From: Telmatactis stephensoni
Lineage: Eukaryota > Cnidaria > Anthozoa > Actiniaria > Isophelliidae
Assembly (NCBI GenBank): GCA_029948255.1
Contig: JALIZF010001005.1
Span: 1-64,000, forward strand
Direction of reading: 5' to 3'
Length of the DNA stretch: 64,000 nucleotides
Position 1 is the first letter of the stretch. Every line of letters begins with the position of its first letter. Positions 4,993 through 33,700 of this stretch are shown piece by piece. The notes under the pieces were generated by a model. That model did no database searches and was not told the DNA's origin. It saw only the letters and a list, made by a program, of their open reading frames with translations. Made by a program: the position numbers and the translations under genes.

Positions 4993-7918
4993 ATGAATCT
5001 TGAAGAAGGCGCCACAAGTGCTGCAGCTGATCTGAAGTCTGAATCCAGTGAGAATCCTTCAGGGGACGTGGACAAAATGGCGGACCTATCACCTCCTCTA
5101 CTTCAACAAGATGAAATGGCTGAAGTACTACGAGAGTGGAACGATGAAGAAGACGAAGTTGTCGAGTTTATACAACATTCTCCTGCTGGAAGTACACGTC
5201 ACAGAACTGAAAATGGCTCTATTCAAGATCATGAAGACTCTCGAAATGAAAGAAAAGCAAGAGAGAGGTCTACTCTGACAGGAAAGCCATTTTATGCACC
5301 TTACATCAGATGTATGAAGACGATTTGCTTGTTTGTGTCCTTCTTGGGTTTGGTAAGAACACTTTTTACACCTTTGTAGTTGGGGATGCTTTACATAGCA
5401 ACATTAATCCATCGCATTAATAATTGATTTTTATTCTTACTTAACTTATTAAGCTTAAGCTTATGTAAATTTCTTCAGAGCATGTGAATTAATGGTTCAT
5501 TGTTTTGAGGGTTTTCTAAGGGTCTTTCATAAACAAATATTTTCCTGACACCGATTGTCAGACGTTTGCCACGTTGACGACCTTGCGTGACACTAGCTAA
5601 GTCACTAACCAAACATTATGAAAAACATGAATATTTATGAATTAATTGATACATAAATTCATTCAGCTGTCTTGCAGTTCACTAAGTCTTGAAATAATAT
5701 AATTGTAAATGTTGAATTGAAATTATTAGCTGAGTTTTGTAGGAAACAGACTCAGCTTGCATGAAATATATTCAGCATTTATCATATTCACCTCATGTAG
5801 TAACCTACAGTGTTGTCACACTATTAGATATAATTTTTTGTATTTGTTGTCATCAGGGAATATCCAATTCCATGTATGGACCATCTATCTTAGATTTGGC
5901 CTATCATACAAGTGCGACACTGTCACAGATGTCATATATATTCACTGCTAGATCTGTAGGGTACCTAGTCGGTACTGTTGCTGGTGGGTGGTTATATGAC
6001 AGATATAATGCTTATTTGGTACTGGGATGCTCAGCCCTTGGAATAGTCTTGTCTATGATTGTATTCCCACTAGTTAGAAGTGTATATGGTTTGATTATGA
6101 TTGGTTTTGCTATGACAGTTGGTGCTGGGGCACTTGATACAGGTAATTGTACATGTATAACGTTAATCTACTCATATAAAGAAATCATAACAAGACCAAT
6201 GATGCTTATATCATTATTAATTAATGCACCTATCTGTGGCTTCCCCATGGGGATGACCCCTGGGCCATCCACAGGGAAATGTACGGAAATACAAGTAGAT
6301 CGTTTGCAAAATATGCCCCTGGGTTTGGGGAAATGTTTCACTTCATCTTGAGGGTGAAAAATTGGGTTGGGGGTTATATATAGGTATATGCAACATGTGA
6401 ACTAGGGGACTTTGAAGGGAATGACTGCCCCACCCCTGAGGGTAAACATCAAGATTGTTGACAGCAGTTTTACAATCCCCCTGGTCAGCCCAGGGAGGGC
6501 CAGACAGGAAAATATTGGGTTGAGTGCAGCAAGGTCCATATGATGACCTAGAGCCAAATATTTTCCCATTGGGCCTGCTGCCCTCACTCAGTCAATTAAG
6601 CAGTTTATCATTTGAGCTAATTTTCTGTTTTGAAAAGTGCTAAAATACTCTGTAATACAAATATACATGATTATTATTATAACGAGCAGAAACAAGCAGG
6701 GCTGGATGTTTTTTTATGGACCATTTGCATATTAAGCCATGCAGCCCCAATCACGTCAACTTTTCTGAAGGTTTCATTAACAGTGCAGGAGTAGAGCCAT
6801 ATGGGTCAGTATGAACCTTTATTGAACATTATCCAATATATTGTGTTGTAGCTGGCAATGCCATTCTGTTTGTTCTATGGCCAAGAAAGTCACAACCCTA
6901 CATGCAATTTTTGCATTTTACATATGCTGCAGGAGCATTTCTAGCACCCCTGCTTGTACGACCATTCCTTCTTCCAGACAGTATCACCAACCCAGTAGCC
7001 AATAGCTCCTTGTCCAATGAAACACATGACAATAGTCCAGAGGATATACCTAGAGTTACGTGGGCATACTGGCTTGGTACTGTTCCATGTTTAGCATCAG
7101 GAGTGTTTTTCCTGGCCTGTGCTTTCCTCAAGTCCTTAAAAGAAGAAGTGGTTAAAAAGGAAAAACAACATCTTCCTGGCAGTTACAATAACAGTAGATG
7201 CTTCAAAGGGATCATTCTCTCTCTGTTCTTTGTTTTCTTTCTGAATTATGTTGGCATGGAAACAGGCTATGGTGGATTTATTTTTGCCTATGCTGTGGAA
7301 TCTAAACCACACATGAAAAAAGACAATGCATCGCTATTAACAGCTACTTACTGGGGAACATTTTCTTTAGGAAGACTAATATCTGTACCAGTATCTAAAC
7401 GACTAAAACCACAGAAAATGCTTTTAATTGCCATTACAGGGTGTCTTATTGGGGCAGTAATATTGATCTCCCAATTGCACGATGGATGCGACATATACTC
7501 AAGCTCTAGGCTCTGGTCTGGTACAGTAATCTTTGGTTTCTCTGCTGCCTCCATTTTTGCTACAACCTTAAGCTGGGTAGAACATTTCCTTGATGTTTCA
7601 GGAAGAGTAGCATCATTCCTACTTGTAGGTACATGTATAGGTGAGATGATTATCCCCGTTGCTGTTGGAAACACCTTTAAATCCATAGGACCATGTACAC
7701 TAATGTACTGTATTTTTACCCTCTGCTGTCTGTGTCTGTTGAACTTTGTGGCCATTCATTTGTTTGGTAGACATTTCCAGTCCAGTAATACCTCCACAGG
7801 TATAGAATTTCACAAAAAAAGTAAAACAACTGAAGAACCACCAAAACCAAAAGAACAAGATGAAGATGAAGTACTAAAGCTACTTGAACAGAACAATGAG
7901 ATATTCAATGGTAATTAA
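4993..7918 (+). CDS. MFSD4B: MFSD4-type major facilitator transporter
   Basis: Membrane transporter of the major facilitator superfamily, closest by eye to MFSD4A/MFSD4B (the NaGLT1 glucose-transporter group). Exons 4993-5352, 5857-6142 and 6852-7918 join in phase to give 570 residues, somewhat longer than the vertebrate proteins because of an acidic cytosolic N-terminus of about 105 residues. The first helix spans the exon 1/2 junction. Family marks are GPSILDLAYHTSATLSQ at 128-144 and the loop motif GGWLYDR at 163-169. Exon 3 begins AGNAILFVLWPRKSQPYM and carries the rest of the helices; the tail is charged and rich in Lys/Glu. The ATG at 4993 is the first in frame after the short promoter; in-frame codons upstream of 5857 lie in the intron. 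Transported substrate is inferred (sugar); symbol choice between MFSD4A and 4B is not certain. Confidence 0.85.
6400..6600. repeat. Dispersed repeat copy in MFSD4 intron 2
   Basis: Contains the phrases GGGAGGGCCAGACAGGAAAA and gagccaaatattttccc. Related degenerate copies lie at 12715-12850 and 18460-18600, so this is a dispersed MITE-like family. Confidence 0.55.
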
Positions 7919-18100: not shown

Positions 18101-21100
18101 ACTTTCAACATCCACAAGGTTGTCCCAGAAAGACCTGGATAACCACCTCCAGTGAAGATCTGAAAACTTGGGGTATTTCATGACACCAACAGTAGGCTCC
18201 GCCCAGCCAATCTAGTATAATATAACTATCAAATGTACTAAATATTGTTTTGACAATCTTACCTCAATGTAGTAATTGATTCCTCATAATTGTAACTAGC
18301 TGGTCCCTAAGGTTAGAGACAAAATTGTCATATAGAATTATTGTTATGATGTAGCTATCTATTAAATATTACATTTAATGGTAAAATAATGTTCCTGTTT
18401 GTTTTTGCATATGTTTTTGATAACTTAGATCATCAGGCAGTTCATGAAATAAAATACCTATTGCCTGTGTTGGGTGGGGCCAGACAAATGTATTTGACAT
18501 GTTCAATTAGCATGGACCTTGCTGAACTTGGCCCATACAGCCCTCCCACCTGGAGCCAAATATTCTCCCCTCCAGCCCTCCCACTCGGTCAATAATATTA
18601 CTTACAATGTTAGCTACCATTACAGTCCTGGCATTACCACCAAGAGAATCTAAAATAATAATATTTGAATAGTGAAAATACAGTATTAAGGATCTACACT
18701 TCTAGTTTCATATCCAAGTCCTCCATAACTAAGACTTACAAAGTACTAAAAGATCTATGACTACAGTAAGTGTTGCTGGGTGATATTACCTTGAAGTAAT
18801 CTAGTCAACTTGGAGTCTCTGTATGGTATATGGGTGCTCTTACCATCAACCTGTCATACAATAAGATAAAGTCTTGCTATAAAATGAAACAGTGTCATAG
18901 TATTATTTTCTACTGACAATGAATGCAATGCTATAATATAAAAGTAAGTCTAGGACTTACCAAGGCTGAAATGACATTACCAAGAGCTGATAAAGACAGA
19001 TTTATTTTTGTGGCTTCCTTTAAACGTTCTCCCTAAATACAACATGGTTGTTTGAGTAATAATAATAATTAGAGAATGAAGACATTATTTTATACTCACT
19101 CTGTGTATACCTTTAACAGTACACAGCCTGCTGTCAGTGTATTAAGACTTATTGAACAATTATTGAGAGATTAATTAATTGACTTATATTCACATGTATC
19201 TATATCTGACACCAATATTAACCATGCATCCAGTCATCCTCCTATTCAGTAACCCATCTATTTAGCTCTTAATACATTCATTTGCCAAATATTTCTAATC
19301 ATTATTTTATAAACAATTCACAGCTAACATGCTTGATAAACTATAATAACAAATAATGAAATAGATGTAGCCACCAGTGCTGTCATTTCAAGTAGTTCAC
19401 TCTCTGTCCAGCCCTCAAGTCTCCTCTTGCCCTCCAGGGTGAACTACTAGGAATGACTGCATTAGAGGATATGATTTTTAAATATCAATTACAGCAGCTC
19501 CTGTCTTGGATTGTCGTTCACTGCCAGCTAAATCCACCATATTAAGCTTACCAACCCTGATATGTGCCTCACCAACTGCATCAAGCTGCAAATTAATATA
19601 ATTTAACAACACACTGTCAGACCAGTGGAAAAATATAATAAAACAACAATGAAATGTCTTTACTGAACTGTTATATAAAATAACTGTTTACTAGTTAATA
19701 GTTTTAGGTTGATATAATTATACTGCTTGTTCTTACACAGCTGCATTCTATGGTGATAATAAAAATGGCATGTGATCTTGAAGAATGTTCATTCATATTT
19801 GTAGCTCTGCAACAAAATGTCAAATAATTAAATGATGAATTTATGAATTAATTATATAGTGCCTATACAAAACTGCTCTAGGTGCTAATATATTATTACT
19901 ATGTGTATAAACGTCAGCATGCAAGCCTGGTTTGGTAAGTTACATATAGGTCAGTAAACTGTAGACCGATGTACATTATTTTGTAGCATGCCTTGAAGAA
20001 AGATGCACTGAGACTTCACATTAGACAGTATGATGGACACCATAATTATAATTATTCAATGCAAGATGTCAGATATATAAATATAAGATGTTCAACATGC
20101 AAGATTTAAGGACGGTGCAAGATGTCAGCTGATCACCTGACTCTTGTATGCTCATGTTGACTTTAGCATACCTTGTTTCACTTTTTTCGTGGATTGAAGA
20201 TGGAGTCACTGCTTGAAAACAAGGTAATAAAAACATATACAAAGCAAAACAGCAGGATGTAAGTATGTAATTGGTCAGTGGCTTTAACAACGGTAATGTT
20301 GTAGTAAGAGGAAAATCCAATTTTCTCTTTACACTAACATTGTTAAAGCCACTGACCAATTATAAATGTGACCGCAACTTACATCCTGCATCTGACATCT
20401 TGCACCCCACATTTTTCTGGACATCTGACATCTTGCACAACACATTTTGCAGGACATCTGACATCTTGCACAACACATTTTGCAGGACATCTGACATCTT
20501 GCACAACACATTTTGCAGGATATCTGACATCTTGCACAACACATTTTGCAGGACATCTGACATCTTGCACAACACATTTTGCAGGATATCTGACATCTTG
20601 CACAACACATTTTGCAGGACATCTGATATCTTGCACAACACATTTTGCAGGACATCTGACATCTTGCATCAAGGGGACACTGCATCATGCATCTTAAATC
20701 TGACATCTTATAATGAATATCTTGCATTGGACATCTTGCACTGATGATCTTTCATCAGACATCTTGCATGCCCCTTAAAGTCAATTTCGTATGACTGTGA
20801 AAATGGCACCACACGGTCACGGCATGGTTACAGCATGAATTTTGAATGTTTTTATAGACAACATGGCACTAACATGGTTACAGCACGGCGCGGTCTGTTT
20901 CACACTCATACAAAATCTGCTCTATGTGTCAGAATACCATAAAGTGTATGGCTCACTACACTTACCCAACAGATCTGTTTTGATTCCCAACACTCATCAC
21001 ATGTTCAATTTCTTTTACACTTTTACAAACAAATGATTGAAGATCCTGTGCACAATCAAAATCATAGTTTACAAATTGGGTACACTACTTTGCTAATAAT

Positions 21101-24100
21101 TGTATATTGAACACTGAATATAATAATAATTATATTTTAAATATGCATGATCCAATTGGTTGAGAAAGTTCTGTGTGATCATAGTACACGTGCATGTACT
21201 AGATGACCTCACAGATCCTTATGTGTGCTCTGATTGGTTGAAATCTTTTGATGAATATTAATAAATAAATTAGCCTGCGAAAGCCTCATCTCACTCAAAA
21301 GTAGCTTAGACCTGCGAGTTGAGCTCAACACTTTTCTGTACTGCCGATGTCATTTTTATCCTGAATCTGAATAAAGGACTATTTAGTGACAGTAGTTCCT
21401 TTAGTACAAGCTAATTTTCCAGAAAGCTGAAATTGGACAGCATGGAGTACATATATATACTAATAATATACTAATTACTAATTTATTTATTAGTATATGT
21501 ATTAGGACTCTATGCTGTCCAATTTGAAAATAACTGGACAAGGAAATTTCCAAGGACTGCCAAAATTGGACAATTCATGATAGATGGTGTCAACATTTAT
21601 TGGCAAATCAACAAAATCCAGCATATGAATGTTAGTCTCCCTCACAGCTGCTACCAGTGTCAGCACGCAATGCAATCTCCCCTGAGTAGGGAGAAAGCAT
21701 TGCATGACAACACTGGTAGTGGCTGTGACTGCAGACTATATTGATTGTATAGGTTCAAGACATATGATTTTGATTTTGATTTATTATACCTTGACATAAA
21801 CACCAGTATCTGGTCTTTCCTTGAGTTCTAGTCTCTTCTTCAAGTCCTTAGCTAACAAATCTTTGATTTCTTCCTGGTAGATTTCCAGGTAAGATGCCCT
21901 GACCAGGTACTGTTCATTGGTGGTACGGGCAATGTGAGTAAAGATGTGTTCAAATGAGTTGGGTATTACACCTTTTAACTCTGCATCAGATCTTACACCT
22001 GGTGACACCAAAAACAGTTAGTAGTTTATCACTTTCTCAATCACAGGTTATTGATTGTACATACTTCATGGCTTACCAGTGCATGCAGCTTTACAGAATA
22101 TAGAGTACATGTGACTGTGGCTATACCTCAAGCTACTCTTATGCCACCATTGTGCTCTCCCAACAATCTGCATGAACTCAATAAATTATATGCATACTCC
22201 AAGCGGGATGAGCTCTAACTGCCCTAAGCATCTGACAGATTGTTATCATACATGTATCTTAATTTTTGTTCTGTATAGCTTCCATCATAGGCATATCAGA
22301 AGTGACTTAGTTACTGACTCTGATAATGAACCATATGGTTTGAGATATGCAGTTATATATAATATAGATCTAGTACAATTTTGAATGTTTTTACAGACAT
22401 CACAGCAGGATCATGGCCCACTAGTATGGACTGTTTCATATGCTCTATTTATTTACTGACAGATGTTCATCACTAACAATAATATTTGTTGTTATGGTAC
22501 CTTCCATGGTATAAGTTTTGCCTGTGCCAGTTTGACCATAAGCAAATATTGTTCCTGAAATGAGATAAAACAAGGAATCAGTGCTTTAATTTCTATATGA
22601 TTTGTTAGCACACTTGTATTAGTTTATCCAGACAGTCATACCATTATAGCCTTCAAGTACAGAATCAACAAGTTGCCGAAAAATCTCATCATAAAGGTCT
22701 AATTGCTTGGAGCTGAAAACCAAACAGTTGAAAAGATTATTAAAACAAAATTCCAATGTTGTACACAGTAACTGCACACATATAATTCCATACTTCCAGT
22801 CATAAACAGCATCATATGTAAATAGTTTGGGTACTTCTCCAGGCTTTAATAAATTCTTGATTTCTATTGTGCCTTTTTTGACATTCATCTCAACCACTCT
22901 GTGGCAAAAAATTATTTATAAAAATATTTCAAAATATTATTATAGAGTTTATTAATATATACTAGCTGATTTTCTGACACATGAAGGGCATTGTCACATT
23001 AACTCCCAAGACAGTCTTGGAAATAAGAACAACTGTTCCAAAAATTTCCACTTTATGAAAGACAATGACTCTTTTTCCCAGTGGTTTTGAAGTGAGTAGA
23101 AGCAACACATTGGCTGGTTATAATTGTAGTTGATTTGGGAAAATTTAAAAAAGCATTCACTGACAAATGACCGTGCAATTGAGTCAGTATTTTCATCTAT
23201 GGTGAATAATATCTTTTAAAATAATGTACTTTTAGCTAAATATTTAAACCATTGGTAATGTGTTGTGGAGTGTAAAACACCACTGCAACACAATGGCAGT
23301 TAATGAATGCACTATGTCATGAGTTATGTCCTTCACATTCATGTAAAACTATTAGATAACTATTATACCTTTCATGTCCAGCTGCAATCTCTTTCTCATT
23401 CATTGGTCGACACCTGACCACTACTTTAACAGACTCTCCTCCTTTTGGTTTAGACTACAATTTATTTGAATGTTCAATCAGTGGTACTACAGTTATTGAT
23501 ACAATCGTTGGTCTAATCTATATAGCTATTTGTACAAACATTGACCCTCCAAAACAACAAAGCTAAATGGGGAATCAGCTGATTAGATGATTTTCAAGAA
23601 GGGTTTTTTGCAACATGCAACAACTAAGACAAATTCTGGTACTCTGAACACAATTATTATCTGGCAAATTAAGAGATAAAACATATGAAAATCCACATAT
23701 TACTAGACTAGTTTACCCAGCAGCTATTTGAGTCTGACGGCTTCTAGGTTCAATGATTTTGAAGGGGTCAGTGTTTGTGGAAATACTCACATTCAAATTA
23801 GATGTTAGCAGCTTATAAATTAGGTAATTAGGTAGTTAGGTAATTATTAGGTAAATTAGGTAGAATGGTAAAATCCAAGCCCCGCCGAGACAAGGTGTAT
23901 TCTTACGAGCCCAGGGACCTTTTTGAAGATTTATATTGTTTTCAAAATTTGAGACCTCGAGATGGCTTTTAGAGAAAAAATCCCCGGACTTCAAAAGCTT
24001 CAAGATTTGACCAAAATTTTGCGAGACTCTGACTTTTTGAGGGGACCACTCTACACCCCTAAAATACCTGACAGATAGCAGCAGAATTTGATATATTATA

Positions 24101-24245
24101 TAAAATTAAATAATAAACTATAATAACTGCTATATTTTCAAACCTACGTATGATATGATACTTTTATACAAAATACATCAAAATAATTGCAAATATTTTT
24201 TTACAAAACAATAATTTGGCTGCAAATCTTTGAACTGCTTACCAT
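12146..24245 (-). CDS. KIF3B: Kinesin-II motor subunit KIF3B
   Basis: Plus-end microtubule motor subunit of heterotrimeric kinesin-II, which drives anterograde intraflagellar transport. Twenty-five exons, phases consistent, give 759 residues (human KIF3B is 747): 24245-24243, 23454-23369, 22898-22794, 22712-22642, 22554-22501, 21998-21790, 21045-20966, 19806-19737, 19585-19493, 19032-18961, 18850-18790, 18649-18606, 18306-18263, 16778-16683, 16588-16524, 15813-15677, 15466-15374, 15187-15083, 14970-14851, 14710-14592, 14361-14245, 13883-13778, 13205-13066, 12587-12513 and 12260-12146. The P-loop GQTGTGKT is at 95-102, switch I SSRSH at 211-215, switch II DLAGSE at 244-249. After the neck come a Lys-rich run, an acidic stretch and a long coiled coil. 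The tail motif [17 protein letters not shown] separates KIF3B from KIF3A. The first coding exon is the ATG alone. The intron after exon 22 uses a GC donor. Confidence 0.96.
13404..13600. repeat. 36-bp minisatellite in KIF3B intron 22
   Basis: About five units of roughly 36 bp built on CAGGATTAAATCTAAAGAAA followed by accattcatttta. Intronic. Confidence 0.85.
15890..16423. mobile_element. Inverted-repeat element CAGGGACCACGGAGC in KIF3B intron 15
   Basis: Left terminus CAGGGACCACGGAGC is mirrored by GCTCCGCGGTCCCTG at 16409-16423. Flanking GAAAT at 15885-15889 and 16424-16428 may be the target duplication. No coding frame. Confidence 0.75.
16988..18081. mobile_element. 1094-bp foldback element with 442-bp arms
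   Basis: Lies in KIF3B intron 13. The left arm 16988-17429 and the right arm 17640-18081 are near-perfect reverse complements of equal length. Termini are CAAGGGCGCTAAGGCAAATA. The 210-bp spacer has no open frame. Flanks are a perfect 7-bp duplication AAATAAA at 16981-16987 and 18082-18088. A non-autonomous DNA transposon; the length of the duplication is unusual for a named superfamily. Confidence 0.93.
20040..20770. repeat. 33-bp minisatellite with inverted flank
   Basis: In KIF3B intron 7. About eight copies of a 33-bp unit GACATCTTGCACAACACATT plus ttgcaggacatct at 20395-20680. Degenerate copies in the opposite orientation lie at 20055-20125. A hairpin near 20265-20365 (ggtcagtggctttaacaa and its inverse) joins the two sides. 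Confidence 0.85.
20785..20945. mobile_element. Dispersed MITE, TGTGAAAAC... family
   Basis: Contains GACTGTGAAAATGGCACC, a central TTTTGAATGTTTTTATAGAC and a closing GTTTCACACTCATAC. Related copies: 1878-2075, 13640-13770, 22370-22450, 55546-55697 and a fragment at 260-345. Confidence 0.65.
21427..21735. repeat. Two adjacent imperfect hairpins in KIF3B intron 6
   Basis: Hairpin one joins GAAATTGGACAGCATGGAGT to its inverse at 21508-21525. Hairpin two joins gctaccagtgtcagcacgcaa to a matching inverse at about 21695-21725. Confidence 0.55.
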
Positions 24246-24724
24246 AGCGACGACAAGCGTTTCCTTTCTAATACAAAAATTCAAGCTTTCGTTGTTTCAT
24301 CGGTAAAAACAGCCACAAATTGAAACAGAGGCATATATTGGACGGTATTCATTCCATTTTGATCAATTTAGTTGCCTATTTACAGCATTTATGTCGAAAT
24401 CTTGTTAAATCTTTGAAAACGCTTTCCGCCATTTTTATCGTCAAGGAGAACGTCGCCATGGGATATACCGCTGTGCTGATTGTGCGAAAAATTAGTTCCA
24501 CAGGAAACCCAATATATTTCAAATTTTCGGTTGTAATATTCTATTTCAAATTTTCGGTTGTATATTCTTCATTATTTTGCAGTGTGCTTTGGAAGCTCGT
24601 CGTGAACCGTTGTCTGTTAGCCTGCGTAGCGGCCCTGGGTAGGGCAAGTGTTCTGAGACTAGTGATTTCGTGACAAATTGTCACGCAGCCTGCGTCACGG
24701 CACTATTCAAAAAGTCACAGCAAT
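24246..24724. promoter_or_regulatory. Shared head-to-head promoter, KIF3B / ALDH5A1
   Basis: 479 bp between divergent start codons. It must hold the 5' UTRs and promoters of both genes. A plus-strand open frame here (24320-24673) has no recognisable content and I do not call it a gene. Confidence 0.55.
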
Positions 24725-27700
24725 ATGGCGGTAGCACGTAGTCAGTCTTCTCTTCTCAGAAACAAAGGTTTTATTGGTGGTAAATGGATAACATGCGCCA
24801 AAACATTTCCGGTTTATGATCCGTCTACTGGAGAAGAAATCGAACGAGTTGCCAATATGGATGAAGATGAGGCAAGATTAGCTGTGAAGCTAGCCTACGA
24901 TGCCTTTAAAACATGGAAGAAAACTACTGCTAAGGTAGCTACATACAAATCAATAGTCCAGTCCCAGACTTTCTCGCGAGTCCTGGAGCGGCAAGAAAAT
25001 GTTTGATAATACGCCAGCGTGACAATACCAGACATTAATTAGGCATTTTATATCCGCACTCCCCTGCATAGCAGTTGAGGACGTGTTTTCCAAAATAATT
25101 CTCACTCACTTGGATTTTCCATTTATTTTGGTGAAAATTTAAACCCTACTTCCTTGGATTTTCATACATTTTCATGAATTTGAGACCCTACTCCCCTGGA
25201 TTTTCCAGTGGATTTTCACCCGACGTAGCTAATCGAACTTCATCGAATTTAACCACAGGTAGTCCAGAACTGGACCCACTTTATCTTCGCGCGCGCGGCC
25301 AAAATTTAAAATTGGAGCGAGCGCGAGCGATGTAACGCTAACGGACTCAATTTTCTTTCGAATGCGCGCGCGCTTCTTTTATTTCTTCGTTCACTGTTTA
25401 TTGTATATAATTGTTATTGAGAAAAGTGGGTCCAGTTCTGGACTAAACCACAGGCGGACCATCCTCTCAGTTTGTGGTTTGGGTTTCCTGTGTCACGGTG
25501 GAATGGCCGTTGGTTTCAAACAAGCTGAAATGTAGTGCTTTTCACTGGCGATTTTACTTGATTGCTCTACATCTTGAAATTCAGAATATTGTGTCAAAAT
25601 AAACTTCAATCCTTATATTTATCAGATATGAGTCTTGTTTTGTCGTCCGATGAGTTTTAAGAGAGCGTACGTCTCCCTCTAATAACTCTCTTAAAACTCA
25701 TCGGACGACAAAACAAGACTCATATCTGATAAATATAAGGATTGAAGTTTATTTTGACACAATATTCTGAATTTCAAGATGTAGAGCAATCAAGTAAAAT
25801 CGCCAGTGAAAAGCACTACATTTCAGCTTGTTTGAAACCAACGGCCATTCCACCGTGACACAGGAAACCCAAACCACAAACTGAGAGGATGGTCCGCCTG
25901 TGATTTAACCGAACTCCATCACGCGATTGGGTTCGATTGAGTTCGGTAATCGAACAAAATCGAACTCACAAATTTTTTGAGCAATCGAACTAATCGAACG
26001 GTTCGACTGAATTTAAGGAGGCTCCCTATAGTTATAGTGGATACTGATACTAAATGAAAAAGTTATGTTTAAAATCAAGTTTGTTTGAACAAGTGACCGG
26101 TTTGCTGAGCATGCGCGACATGCGTGATTTATCATGACCTCAAGGAAGCCATGTTTTGATTTTTGTGTGAAGTACACTTCAAAATTCTTCGTTTTTCTAC
26201 GTATGTAAAGGATAATTCAGCCTTGATGATCAATCTTGATGTTAGATTTGTATTCCTCGACCCTATTCAAGTCAATATTGGCTAATCACTCTTCGCTAAG
26301 AGTAACTTTAATACCATAAAGTTTGGTTCAACAAGTAGAGAAAATGGCGACCGTTGTCATTGTCTACATACTTCGTCTTCGATTTTGGTCTTGAAGAACT
26401 GCTGTTATTTGGAATTTTCACTAGCAAGGTAAGTTTTTGTCATTTTTATATCTAATGAAGATTGTTTGCAGTAAAATCGGCACTAGATATATCCCTTTTC
26501 TTTCGTGTCAAAGATGGGTAATGTGACTTTATTGAGCATATTTGTAGTGAGCTTATTTGTCATCACACTCAAACTACCAGTATGATCTAAGCAGATATGA
26601 GAACTTTAATATGTGTTTACAATGTTTAATGGGTAATCTTTGTCTTGAAAATTGGAGTAGTCATATTTTTGGGGGTTTCGGACATCGTGGATATTGTTTA
26701 CATGGCAAAAATATACTGTTCGAAAAGTTGTTCCTCGACAATTATTCGAGACTTTAAGAATGAATATGTAGTTATGTATCATAGCTGACAGGAAATTATT
26801 GGTTTCCCAGGGATCGAACAATCTTTAGTGCTAGTTACGGAGCAATAAAGCAATGATATTATTTTGCTTCCAGGCTGTGAAATGCTCAACAAACATTTCT
26901 GGTTTATATTTAAAACTACCACACATATTCCAATTGATTAAGTACCAGGAATTATTGTATTAACGAACTATTGGGCCAGAATTTTTTTACAAATTGGAGT
27001 ACATAGAGAAATTTTCAATTTTAAGTAAAAACCCTTCGTTTTGCTTTTAATTAGCATATGCTTCATTGAATATGCAAAATTTTTCGTATAGTTTTAAAAC
27101 TTTATATTATGTAAAATATATTATCCCTTGGTAGTGAAGTAAGCTCACATATACATATATATTTTTGTCTGATAGTTTTTGATTCATACTGCGGTACACA
27201 ATTAGCCTGATGTGCATTTGATTATTTCATAACAAAACATGCCGGACAATTTGTCTCTCTAAACAAATATTTAGGGTAAGGTATTTCTCTGATAGTTGAT
27301 TCATACTGTAGCGCACAAGCCTGATGCATATTTGATTGTTTCATAAAAGAACATTAACAATTTGTTTGTATAAAAAAAATATTTACAACTGTAGTGTAAG
27401 ATTGTCTAACAAAGTTAAACATTGCTTGCTAGCACAGTAATATTTGCTCCATCAATTTGACTATTCCAGTCACGGCCACACATGTACTCCATATATAAGA
27501 CCAAACTATCAACATGTTCATAACTGCACACAGCAATCAATCCACCACGATTGTGACCATGGGGGTGACTTTCAAAAAGTGCAATCTTCCTGAACTGAGT
27601 ATGAAAACACATCAGCATAGATTTATCGGGTGGCACTGTTACAATAGCACTTCTGTCATCAGTTGATAAGCATATATCTACAAGCGTTGTTCTGAACATT

Positions 27701-30700
27701 GAAGCAGAGACAACACCAATATCCCCAATTATTCTTAGTCCAAAATGGTCTTGTCTTGTCTGCAGTGCTTCTTGAGGTGTGAGATTGGGTTGGCCTAATG
27801 GAAGGTTGAGGGTATTGTACAGGAGATTGCTTTCAACCATTGAATCTGCAAATTTAGCTATGGACTGCATAATACTTATTGATGATGGGATAGGTAGGAT
27901 GCCATTGAAAAATTTCATTGCACCAATAGCAGCAATAATACAGCAGGCGTTGCTGCCTATTGGTACCCCAAAGATTGTTGCCTGAGATATATTGATTGGT
28001 AGACTCCATTCAGTGATGTGACCAAAGTAGATACTTGTTAGCAGTGTGTTTACTTGGTTATCTGGCTGAGCTGGTTGTTGATTTTGATTACAGCTTTGGA
28101 CACACACACCCTCTGGACATGCTGGACACTTGGGAGGACCATTCTTGGGGTTTGTATGCCCTTTTCGTGGATGACCACAGTTCTTGCATTTTGGTGTTCG
28201 TTTAGGTGCAGATGGTTGTGATGGTTGTGGATTATGAGAAGATACACAAGGTAATGGTGGAGCTTTTGGAAATGGTAGTGCTGATATTGATTCTACTGCA
28301 GATTGGACCTGGCTGTCTACAGATGGTGTTTGTACTTGGTCACTCTCTGTTAGTATGTGTGAGGTATTGTCATCATCATCATTGTTGTTTTCATCTACAT
28401 CATCATTGCTTGTTGTCTTTGGATTTAAAATTGTATCTTTTGCTGTAGTAGCCAAACTCTCTGCTTTTGCTGCAAGGAATTTCTGACAGAGTGGACAGAA
28501 ACTGCAATCATCTAGACAATCATTGTGAAAAGAATGAGAACATCCCTCAAATAGAGTCCAAGGCTCATCCTGAATAACTTTGCACCCAGGCAAGTCACAT
28601 CGTTGGTCTTGCTGTGCAGTTGTTAAACCACAGTATCCTAGTGGTAATACTTTAGTTTTGACTGCTTCTGTACCGAATAATCTAGGTAATGCAACCAGCT
28701 TCTTTTTTCCCTTGACAACAATGTTTCCTTTTCCAGGTTCTTTTCCTATTTCACAAAAATTTTTTGCGAGGATGGATGCACATTTGGCCTTCATGGAGCG
28801 TAGATGGTTTAGAACACTTTTCTTTTTTTGGGTTGGTGTAAAATTTTCTTTGAAGCTTTTTTGTGCCTGTTTGGAGTGGAATATTGCTTTAGCCTTTTTT
28901 TCTAGCTGCTCTGTACTGTCACATACATTTGTCTTTGAACGAATGATACTATGTGCATTCTCGACGGGGTATTCATCAAATATAGTCAAGTATTGTCTAA
29001 TCAGGTTGTACATACCAGGGTGGTGCATTCCCCAGTATGTACACATGGCTATCCATACAAGAGGAGATTTATTGTAGTGATGCCTTTCCAAGCAAACAAA
29101 CATGGTCCAGATTCTTATCACTGCCTTGAAATACTCAGTAAAATTGTTTAGTTTAAATGTCACACTGTAAATTGTTAGAACAAGGGGCAGATAGTTGTCC
29201 AGAAGGTTTAATAGTGTTCTGTACTCTAGATCTTTGCACTGGGAAAATTTCTCTTTGACAGAATCTCTTAAAAAGAGCCAACCACCATAAGTCACCTCCA
29301 ACAGATAGCTTATTCTCCAGGGCTTTGGCTTCTTAGCAAGCTTGCTTTTAGGGAATAAGTTAGTGTAAATGGCTTCAAAAAAGGGGCGGAAATCATTGAA
29401 TAATGTTTCTCTAGCATTTAGGGAAATGTGTAATGGTCCAATGCAAGGTATTACTGATAATATTCTTGGTTGGTTATTGTTGTTTATGGTTTGTCTTTTC
29501 CTTTCAGGTTCACTGGAACTGGCAGTTGAATATGAATGATCTTCATGAATAGTTGGAACATCTGTGTGGTTTGATGATTCATGATGCATTACAGAGGAAT
29601 ATGAATGGTCAAAGTGATGAACACCAGCAGTAGCTTCTTGTGTCAGTGATGGAGTTGGTGGAAAAAACTTCACAAGACTTTCATAAACTATCTGACGCGA
29701 GTAGAACTGGGCTGGCCAGTCACCAGGTTGTGGAGTTAAGAACATGTTGAAGTAGTCAGCTAGTTTAGTACTTAAAATAGTATTGAATATGGTTGTGGCG
29801 CCAGCTTTTAAACAAAGTTTCTCAAATTCGTTGGGGTCATATACCGGCGGATTCTTCAATGTTGTAAACTCATAATACATGACCTCCTTTAGACGCTTTA
29901 GTTCGAATGGAAGATCGCACCCTGCCATAGTAAAAAAATAGGAAATATCTCTAAGTGTAATAAAACACAATGGTTATCACAATATGTTCTCCTTGTTTTA
30001 TAACGCAATATTCTTTGTTATTGGGGAATAGGCTTACGTTTAGAAAGGTGTTTCATTTCATCCTGAACTTCGTCAAAGAGGCCAGGTGGAAAAATTACGC
30101 TGCCGCACGGACCTCGCAGAATTTCTCCAAAACACGTTTCTTGCACTTGCCAGTTCTCTAGTGCCATGACATTTTCCTCTGTCTGACAGTGCTCACTTTT
30201 AGTCGTGGGCTCTTTGATGGGCGGTGTTGTCGTAATGCGCTCGGCCTTCCAACCTTCCGCTTGCATTTTCCCACTCTCTGTTTCGGACATGCTAAATAAG
30301 TTTTTGTATTTTTCTTGGTTGAAATTATGAAAGAATCGTAATACTTACCCTTGATAATTGATTGCTGGATGTAGATAGTGCTGAATATCTGCATGCTCCA
30401 CAAATTCGCGCGTCGTCTGACAGCTCAGCTGTTAATTTGAACTTACTGGCGTAAGGCTTCGCAGGCCTGCTATTTTTATGATCTTTAGAAGAAATGGCTT
30501 TATTACACACAGCACACTTCTTAAAATAATTGCTTCCATCACAAACGATAAAAATTAAAAGAAAAAACGAGATATACAGCAGCAAACTATAACTCCGAAA
30601 CATTTTTGAACAAATAATATAACCGGGAGCCCTGTGGTGAGCCTTCAATACAACTCTGTCGTTCAGCAGCTACGCGCATGGCCATGCAAAACGGCCACTT

Positions 30701-33700
30701 GTTGTTTGTTTGCATATTGACAGCTTATAGACCAATTATATTGAAGATTATGAGTTTTAGGATTTGTTGTAAGGGCCATGATCCCATGGATGTTACCATA
30801 GCAACGCTACAGCTTCCATAATAAGGTCTCTTTTTACCAATTAAATTTTAATTGCTCGAAGTTTCCACGGTAAAAGTTGATTTTTTTAAAATAATATGAA
30901 ACTTTGCTTAATTTGTGATTGTATGATCGATTTTAAAAATATTCTGGAGATCAGAATATGAGATATTGTCAAATTTCGGTTTTTCTAAATTGAGAAAAAT
31001 CTGATGTCAGGAAGTTAGCTAACTTTTGATAGTGGCTGTATGATAATGTGGAAAATAGATTTTGTGAGTTTTAAAAAAGTTCACCGTAGAAAACTTGCGT
31101 TTTTACTCATTTTATTGAAACAATGACCTTCCTTAATACTGACGTCACGTTGCTATAGCAACCTTTCGAGCAATGAGTTTCATATCAAACGGTTCCCTGA
31201 TTCATGGTCTGTCATATGGTTGGCTTTACGGTTGTCAAAGTATAAATTTGAAGCAGTATATTATCCACTTTTTACCATTGGTATAAAGGTCTTTGAAACT
31301 ATAGTGAGCTACCTTTAAGTAGTTCGATTAGTTCGATTGCATGAGTTCGAATAGGTTCGATTTTGTTAGAAACAAACAGAGGATAGATAGCATTCGACTG
31401 GAAATGTGATAATACATGTATCATTGGTGCGGGATTCCCCAAATAACGAATAGGTAAACCAAGAAAATTGCTTTTTTTTTTAATTTTATTACAATCCCGG
31501 TTACGTGAGGGCAATGGCAATGTGAATCCCCGGTAAAATCCGTCTAAAATAAATCTCTAAAATAAAGTAAAATAAAATAAAATAAAATAAAATAAAATCT
31601 CTAAAATAAAAAGCTGTCGCGCTATACCCCGCCGGCTGCCATTCCTTAGTCGTCCATTTCTTTTACGCTGTGTCGAATTCCTATTTGACCGGCAGTTTTC
31701 AAATTTTCCAATATTTCCCGAAAAAAACATTCGTACACCATCTAAAGTACACTATCTTTATTTAGAAATGGTAAGCGGTCATAGTTAGCGCTGTAGTGTC
31801 CAACTAGCTCTTTTTCTCTAGCCCCGGGACAGAGTACAACGAGCGACCTAAATCGGGCCTAAATAGACACAGCGTTTCTCGCTCTTAACTTGTTCTTTAC
31901 CCCGATTTGGTTTAAAGTTCTCGTCAATTGCTTGGCTTTCGTCCTTCATTGGAAATTTGGTAATTTGTGTGAAGTTGTTTTTTTACAACGGTGTTCGATT
32001 GAGTTCGATTGGGTTCGATAAAGTTCGAAAATCAAACGCAATCGAACTCGCACAGAAATTTTTCGGTTCGATTGTGTTCGATTATCGAACTAATCGAACC
32101 CAATCGTTCGATTAAGTTCGATTGGGTTCGATAAAGTTGGATTACCGAACGGTTCGATTAGCTACGTCAGGATTTTCAATGGAAGTTGAGGGGGCCACAT
32201 GGAATTGCAGAGGGGTTTTAGTAACCCTTTAATTGGAATCCCATGTGTCCTCAACAGGGGGAGTGAGGATAAAAAATCCGATAGCTGCCCTAATTACACT
32301 TCTTCCCGGGAGTGTTCAATCGATAAAAATCGATACCAAAAAATCAATCTCGATAAATCAATATAAATCGATTATAACCTCTTAATATTGATTGGGCTAT
32401 TGCATTTTATATCCGCACTCCCCCTGTTGAGGACATGTTTTCCAAAATAATCCCTACTCCCTTGGATTTTCCATTTATTTTGATGAATTTTAGACCCTAC
32501 TCCTTTGGATTTTCCAGTGGATTTTCAATGGAAGTCGAGGGGGCTCATGGAATTCCAGAGGGGTTTTAGTACCCCTACTCCCTTGGAATTCCATGTGTCC
32601 TCAACAGTGGGAGTGCGCGGATAAAAAATGCAATAGCCCATTGTATCGATCAGTCAATAAAACTCGTTATTCTTGGCTTTCACTGACGTCATTCTGAGTC
32701 CTAAATAAAATGCAACTGCGTTCTATAGAATTACATGCAGCGCGCAAATAGAACAATAGCCATCCGTTGGTGTGTAAATTTACGTTAAAACTATCCCGAG
32801 ACACTTCTTTATCTACGACGATTTCAATTTAGCTGTCAAAATTCTTGCGCGTTTTTATCACTGTATTCAGACTATTCATCCTTAACAAAATACTTTTTTA
32901 ATGTTGTGATCCAAGATTCACTTTATTTGTAACCTAGAAAAGGTCAAAATTGTTTGAGATACACATTCAATACGTAGTTAATTTTAGACATTATTTAACT
33001 ATCAGGAAAGAAGCGATAAGCTCAAACTGTGGCACAGTCTTATGCACAAAAAACAGGATGAACTTGCTAGAATTCTTACTAGAGAACAGGTTAGTTCTGA
33101 CTAATGGTCAAATACATTGCTAACTTAATGATTTAAAAATAAATGCTTACAAAAATAAATGCTTACACTGTAACGTAATTTTCGAGCCATTAATTTCTTA
33201 CTTTTACTTGGTGCCCGGTGGCGGGTCCGGGATTTTTTAAAGTGCCTATAACGCCTAGCCAAATCCTTTTGAATCTAGAAATACATCATATAAATAAACG
33301 TTTTATATAAATATTTCTGAATAAAATCAACTCCTCCCTGAGAATTAAGCAATTCAAATCTGAAAATGCAAATGAGATGACGTCAAAGCAGGAATTATTA
33401 AATATACAAATACACTAGATACGAATTTTATACTATTTTTCTATTTGCAAAACAATCTCATTGCTAAAGTACAAGGTATGGTGAGTAATTTTGCTGCTTA
33501 ACTGAAATGCACTTGTTTCAGAAGTAGAATCAAAATCAAGCAAATTCCTGCTTTGACGTCATCTCATTTGCATTTTCAGATTTGAATTGCTTAATTCTCA
33601 GAGAGGAGTTGATTTTATTCAGAAATATTTATATAAAACGTTTATTTATATGATGTATTTCTAGATTCAAAAGGATTTGGCTAGGCTTTATAGGCACTTT

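Follow-up and report, generated by a model that had tools for sequence, protein, structure and literature searches.

Several described groups of mobile elements come close to the one analysed here. Mutator elements are credited with target-site duplications (TSDs) of 8-11 bp, and the reported hosts of Rehavkus, which has a PHD finger and a minisatellite, are arthropods and annelids (PMC6446971). In the account given in PMC12730594, hAT elements usually have TSDs of 8 bp, with 5-7 bp in variants, and KDZ elements have TSDs of 8 bp (Zisupton, a Dileera family) or 7 bp (Kyakuja). Viral-tegument-like deubiquitinase (VTD) domains have been described as cargo of rolling-circle Helitrons, for which a protective role was suggested; the same report proposes that the domain spread with transposons and includes several cnidarian VTDs fused to transposon-associated domains, so that the pairing considered below had already been glimpsed (PMC9741609). 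Here we describe element Z, found in a stretch of 64,000 nt of Telmatactis stephensoni contig JALIZF010001005.1 (hereafter the window) and followed through the 483.5-Mb assembly. In our reading, to which we give a probability of about 0.8, Z is a cut-and-paste transposon with a DDE-RING-VTD protein that lies two levels inside an outer element, X, duplicates 9 bp of its target, and is present in the window as a copy mobilised in trans.

Boundaries and copies of Z

The features of Z and of element Y, into which it is inserted, are as follows.

26088-30703, minus strand: element Z, 4616 bp, predicted transposase-RING-deubiquitinase transposon, internal-deletion copy, ends AACAAGTGACCGGTTTGC / AACAAGTGGCCGTTTTGC
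26079-26087, unstranded: TSD of Z, GTTTGTTTG
30704-30712, unstranded: TSD of Z, GTTTGTTTG
30038-30290, minus strand: upstream exon of the Z gene (GT-AG intron at 30037-29922)
27415-29921, minus strand: main exon of the Z gene, stop codon included
29776-29783, minus strand: junction of the in-frame 729-bp deletion, 8-bp microhomology
26017-31313, unstranded: element Y with Z inside, GGAGGCTCCCTATAG...CTATAGTGAGCTACC, TTTAA on either side (TTAA-type)

A six-frame search of the genome with the protein P0001 gave 64 matches (40 candidates scored among 338). Within family A, to which the window copy belongs, copies align at 97-99.8% and share the same ends, position 26088 being matched in 14 and position 30703 in 12 other copies where these could be read. 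A second family, B, has 44% protein identity to P0001 and related ends, AGCACGTAGGCATTTTG / AGCATATAGGCATTTTG. An exact 9-bp TSD flanks 15 of the 17 insertions in which both ends were read, namely 11 of 13 family-A insertions, counting the window, and all four of family B; the exceptions are C542, offset by one base, and C303, which has no TSD. Z therefore combines inverted ends with a TSD of fixed length over independent insertions, as expected of a DDE/D cut-and-paste transposon. X-type ends were not found at the flanks first taken for Z copies (L039-L054), and it was the comparison of copies that gave the true ends of Z. Twelve family-A copies are 99.28-99.96% identical over 2.8 kb, which argues that the family moved recently. 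Beyond the 5' end of one family-B copy (C236; L016, 5682-6255) lies a long minisatellite-like tandem array.

The insertion can also be read from its empty site. Y without Z measures about 0.67 kb, and 40 places in the genome were scored for it, the window's own included. Five Y copies were fetched, of which four read across the Z target (C822, L088, misses the site). The uninterrupted site GTTTAAAATCAAGTTTGTTTGCATATTG is present in all four, with GTTTGTTTG there in a single copy, and TTAA stands beside the left Y end in four and beside the right end in three of them. In the window, the GTTTAAAATCAAGTTTGTTTGCATATTG site is split by 26088-30703, with GTTTGTTTG at both sides. A second locus of the window region (C219; L067, reverse complement 30-70), at 97.8%, has no Z and, exactly at the Z target, is missing 16 bp relative to intact Y, possibly an excision footprint of Z.

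The Z copy in the window derives from a fuller form by deletion. Relative to copies C99 and C485, 729 bp are missing in frame, bounded by 8-bp microhomologies, and the loss takes away residues ~129-371 of P0001, including the first strand of the predicted core and D232, the first putative catalytic Asp, so that this copy should not cut by itself. The deleted segment was found nowhere else in the window (best match E 3.8). The same deletion occurs in C817, which is 99.79% identical over the compared stretch and carries the TSD GAGATGCAC rather than GTTTGTTTG; the two C817 pieces lying outside the element gave no match to window 24000-33500. Because one and the same deletion is found at two sites with different TSDs, the deleted form must have moved after the deletion, presumably mobilised in trans by intact copies.

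Predicted protein of Z

The Z gene is the sole frame of more than 200 aa in the element, and its conceptual product in the window has 919 aa. AlphaFold models predict an RNase-H core of DDE type in which a helical insert separates the Glu helix from the last strand; next come a RING and, at the C terminus, a VTD domain with the papain fold. Among the structures that VIA-align lists, the nearest to the core are the Hermes (hAT) and P-element transposases. The putative catalytic residues are D232, D388 and E619 (P0001 numbering), at acidic positions that are conserved, and an RNase-H fold with conserved D, D and E, as expected of a DDE/D transposase, is thus found in the predicted models. The C-terminal domain matches solved VTDs and has the papain-type VTD fold; its active site retains the Cys and reads ESH in families A and B, as against DSH in P0013 and the C979 copy and D-x-H in known VTDs. 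Because relatives such as P0110 lack both RING and VTD, these two domains are likely to be accessory.

The named relatives, among the matches listed (120 of 178 and 120 of 177, most of them without a species name), come from Exaiptasia, Dendronephthya, Oculina, Paramuricea, Acropora, Desmophyllum, Rhopilema, Montipora, Stylophora and Porites, all of which we take to be cnidarian (corals, anemones and a jellyfish). A fold search of BFVD gave nothing at E 0.001, its best three matches being herpesvirus tegument proteins, followed by uncharacterised giant-virus proteins, and a scan of viral contigs with the Z-core alignment A1 gave 48 pattern stretches, none of which was confirmed. A [C/T/I]QT[D/E] motif recurs near the N terminus, in the window (30158-30290) and in relatives (CQTEE, TQTEQ, IQTDE); to our eye it resembles the binding motif of dynein light chain LC8. 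Upstream of the gene, a minus-strand frame of 107 aa (30325-30648) has a hydrophobic start and CxxC pairs, and no in-frame splice joining it to the Z gene was found by eye.

Relation to known transposons

Set against the known groups, the 9-bp TSD of Z fits Mutator, its fold fits hAT and P, and its sequence fits none of those comparable here. The initial annotation had held that the protein does not look like a Mutator transposase and might belong to a poorly described group with 9-bp duplications. As to the first point, the protein is not recognisable as a Mutator transposase: the Pfam families matched at E <= 0.1 by any of 59 family members number 38, and the 25 listed contain no transposase; nor does one appear in the Pfam tables for seven members at E <= 5 or among the 53 PDB sequences matching the family profile at E <= 10. 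The other two points hold for the coding element, the 9-bp TSD resting on the Z family's own 15 of 17 insertions, but not for X, to which they had been applied. As candidates for Z we weighed Rehavkus, MULE (Mutator-like elements), hAT, P and KDZ; the Pfam results listed show none of them, and the structure lists exclude none.

The strongest alternative would make the Z transposase a far-diverged offshoot of a catalogued superfamily (Mutator/MULE, hAT, P or KDZ) and not a group of its own, which we consider possible but somewhat improbable. With Mutator, Z shares a TSD length within the known range, and the His after the last strand (GPLH) resembles, as we see it, the C/DxxH motif of the wider group; on the other hand, no MULE domain was listed for the Z family, although absence from a profile is no proof. 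Rehavkus differs in its host groups, its PHD finger and its minisatellite. The closeness of the fold to Hermes speaks for hAT, yet no hAT domains were listed, a TSD of 9 bp in 15 of 17 insertions departs from the lengths given for hAT, and we know of no RING or deubiquitinase tail on a hAT transposase. P elements make 8-bp TSDs, whereas that of Z has 9 bp, and none of the PDB chains, searched to the threshold given above, links the two by sequence. KDZ elements have, as does Z, a large multi-domain transposase gene, but their description gives shorter TSDs, which sets Z apart from them; PF18758 is not among the Pfam results listed. Z also differs from the Helitrons with VTDs in being a cut-and-paste element with a 9-bp TSD instead of a rolling-circle one.

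Z may accordingly be put forward as a candidate new DDE superfamily. In Repbase practice, a superfamily is recognised by non-convergence in PSI-BLAST (PMC4455052). One profile round over the protein database recovered close family members only (among the 120 of 177 matches listed), which agrees with a new superfamily without proving it. In titles and the beginnings of abstracts, our literature search, with Repbase outside its scope, met no description of the Z family; nor were this transposon, its ends or its TSD met in the account of VTDs (PMC9741609). The fuller proposal, that this is a new cnidarian DDE superfamily whose transposase-borne RING and VTD edit ubiquitin on the transpososome or in host defence, and whose intact, near-identical copies are probably active, seems to us evenly balanced between true and false.

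That the Z protein is instead a passenger gene appears very improbable. Passenger genes are common in transposons, and we know of no family member with an established biochemical activity, but no other frame above 200 aa exists in Z, the protein has a predicted transposase fold with conserved acidic residues, and families A and B, each with its own ends, encode their own versions of it.

Proposed mechanism

If Z is a cut-and-paste transposon as proposed, its transposase would bind the imperfect inverted ends, and the DDE core would excise the element and join it into the target, cutting the two strands 9 bp apart; the window copy, whose ends are intact, would depend on intact copies to move it in trans. 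For the RING and VTD, the probable role is ubiquitin editing at the insertion complex, with the transposase or host factors as substrates; they may keep the transposase from being degraded, or may target host factors. If true, a transposase-RING-deubiquitinase fusion would directly connect DNA transposition with the control of ubiquitin, and Z might be among the carriers of the tegument-like deubiquitinase domain. The Z family is open to experimental test, since it offers nearly identical intact copies, a non-autonomous partner and empty sites that can be read.

The surrounding nest of repeats

What the initial annotation had taken for a single, odd 6951-bp transposon at 25219-32169 is a stack of nested elements, comprising X, two miniature inverted-repeat transposable elements (MITEs), Y and Z, of which the gene-bearing one is innermost. 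The remaining members are the following.

25219-32171, unstranded: outer element X, all nested parts included, CCCGACGTAGC...GCTACGTCAGG
25212-25218, unstranded: left TSD of X, ATTTTCA, 7 bp (6-7 bp in the 15 other X copies read)
32172-32178, unstranded: right TSD of X, ATTTTCA
25260-25445, unstranded: 186-bp MITE with 23-bp inverted ends, 9-bp TSD AACCACAGG at 25251-25259 and 25446-25454
25444-25907, unstranded: palindromic MITE, ~460 bp, two 222-bp arms and a 20-bp spacer

Much of the earlier description of the outer element stood up to inspection. The flanking repeat GGATTTTCA is present at 25210-25218 and 32170-32178, the ends lie in inverse orientation (the 20 nt at 25219-25238 and those at 32152-32171 show 95% complementarity), the 8-mer GACGTAGC has just two occurrences in the window, one per orientation (25222; 32161-32168), and, once one repeat is removed, the host MITE rejoins, its alignment to the sister at 32448-32629 crossing the junction at 86.9%. 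Complete X copies elsewhere have TSDs of 6-7 bp and not of 9. A genome search with the X right-end DNA gave 40 scored places, window included, among 178 candidates; 20 loci were cut out, and both ends were visible in 15. These complete copies have CCCGACGTAGCTAATCGAAC-type ends and measure 616-1263 bp; CCC precedes the 17-mer at the left end in 15 of 15, the right end has GGG in 14 and GATCGGG (a GATC insertion) in one, and the TSD is 6 bp long in nine and 7 bp in six (two of these six being the same site). The window's right end, CGTCAGG, differs from CGTCGGG by one base, which assigns to X the two G's in front of ATTTTCA and leaves a TSD of 7 bp in the window; the 9-mer noted earlier is ATTTTCA together with the GG that ends X, GG also preceding the target by chance.

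X by itself is about 1 kb, and its own parts in the window contain no frame of at least 80 aa, making it a non-coding repeat. The claim that an element with these ends carries the protein thus fails, and the view of a single 6951-bp transposon, for which matching ends and the rejoining MITE had spoken, is refuted to near certainty by complete X copies too short for the gene, Z copies elsewhere with their own ends and TSDs, and Y without Z. Nested repeats can evidently pass for one large transposon with a misleading TSD.

The X family (window 25210-32178) has TCGAAC subterminal arrays and a TSD varying between 6 and 7 bp. Dada elements are described with a 6-7-bp TSD, no terminal inverted repeats and insertion into small RNA genes (PMC3706591). 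Dada was considered for X, and the TSD length fits, but the near-perfect 20-bp terminal inverted repeats of X rule against it. Both MITEs lie inside X, the 186-bp one in its left arm; the latter has the ends TAGTCCAGAACTGGACCC and was scored at 40 places in the genome, window included. It seems to sit in the end of the palindromic MITE, whose left end appears to continue beyond it leftwards.

Elsewhere in the window, two frames at 5761-7918 look by eye like pieces of an MFS-like gene for a membrane transporter, and a frame at 20271-20744 contains tandem 11-residue repeats (a minisatellite).
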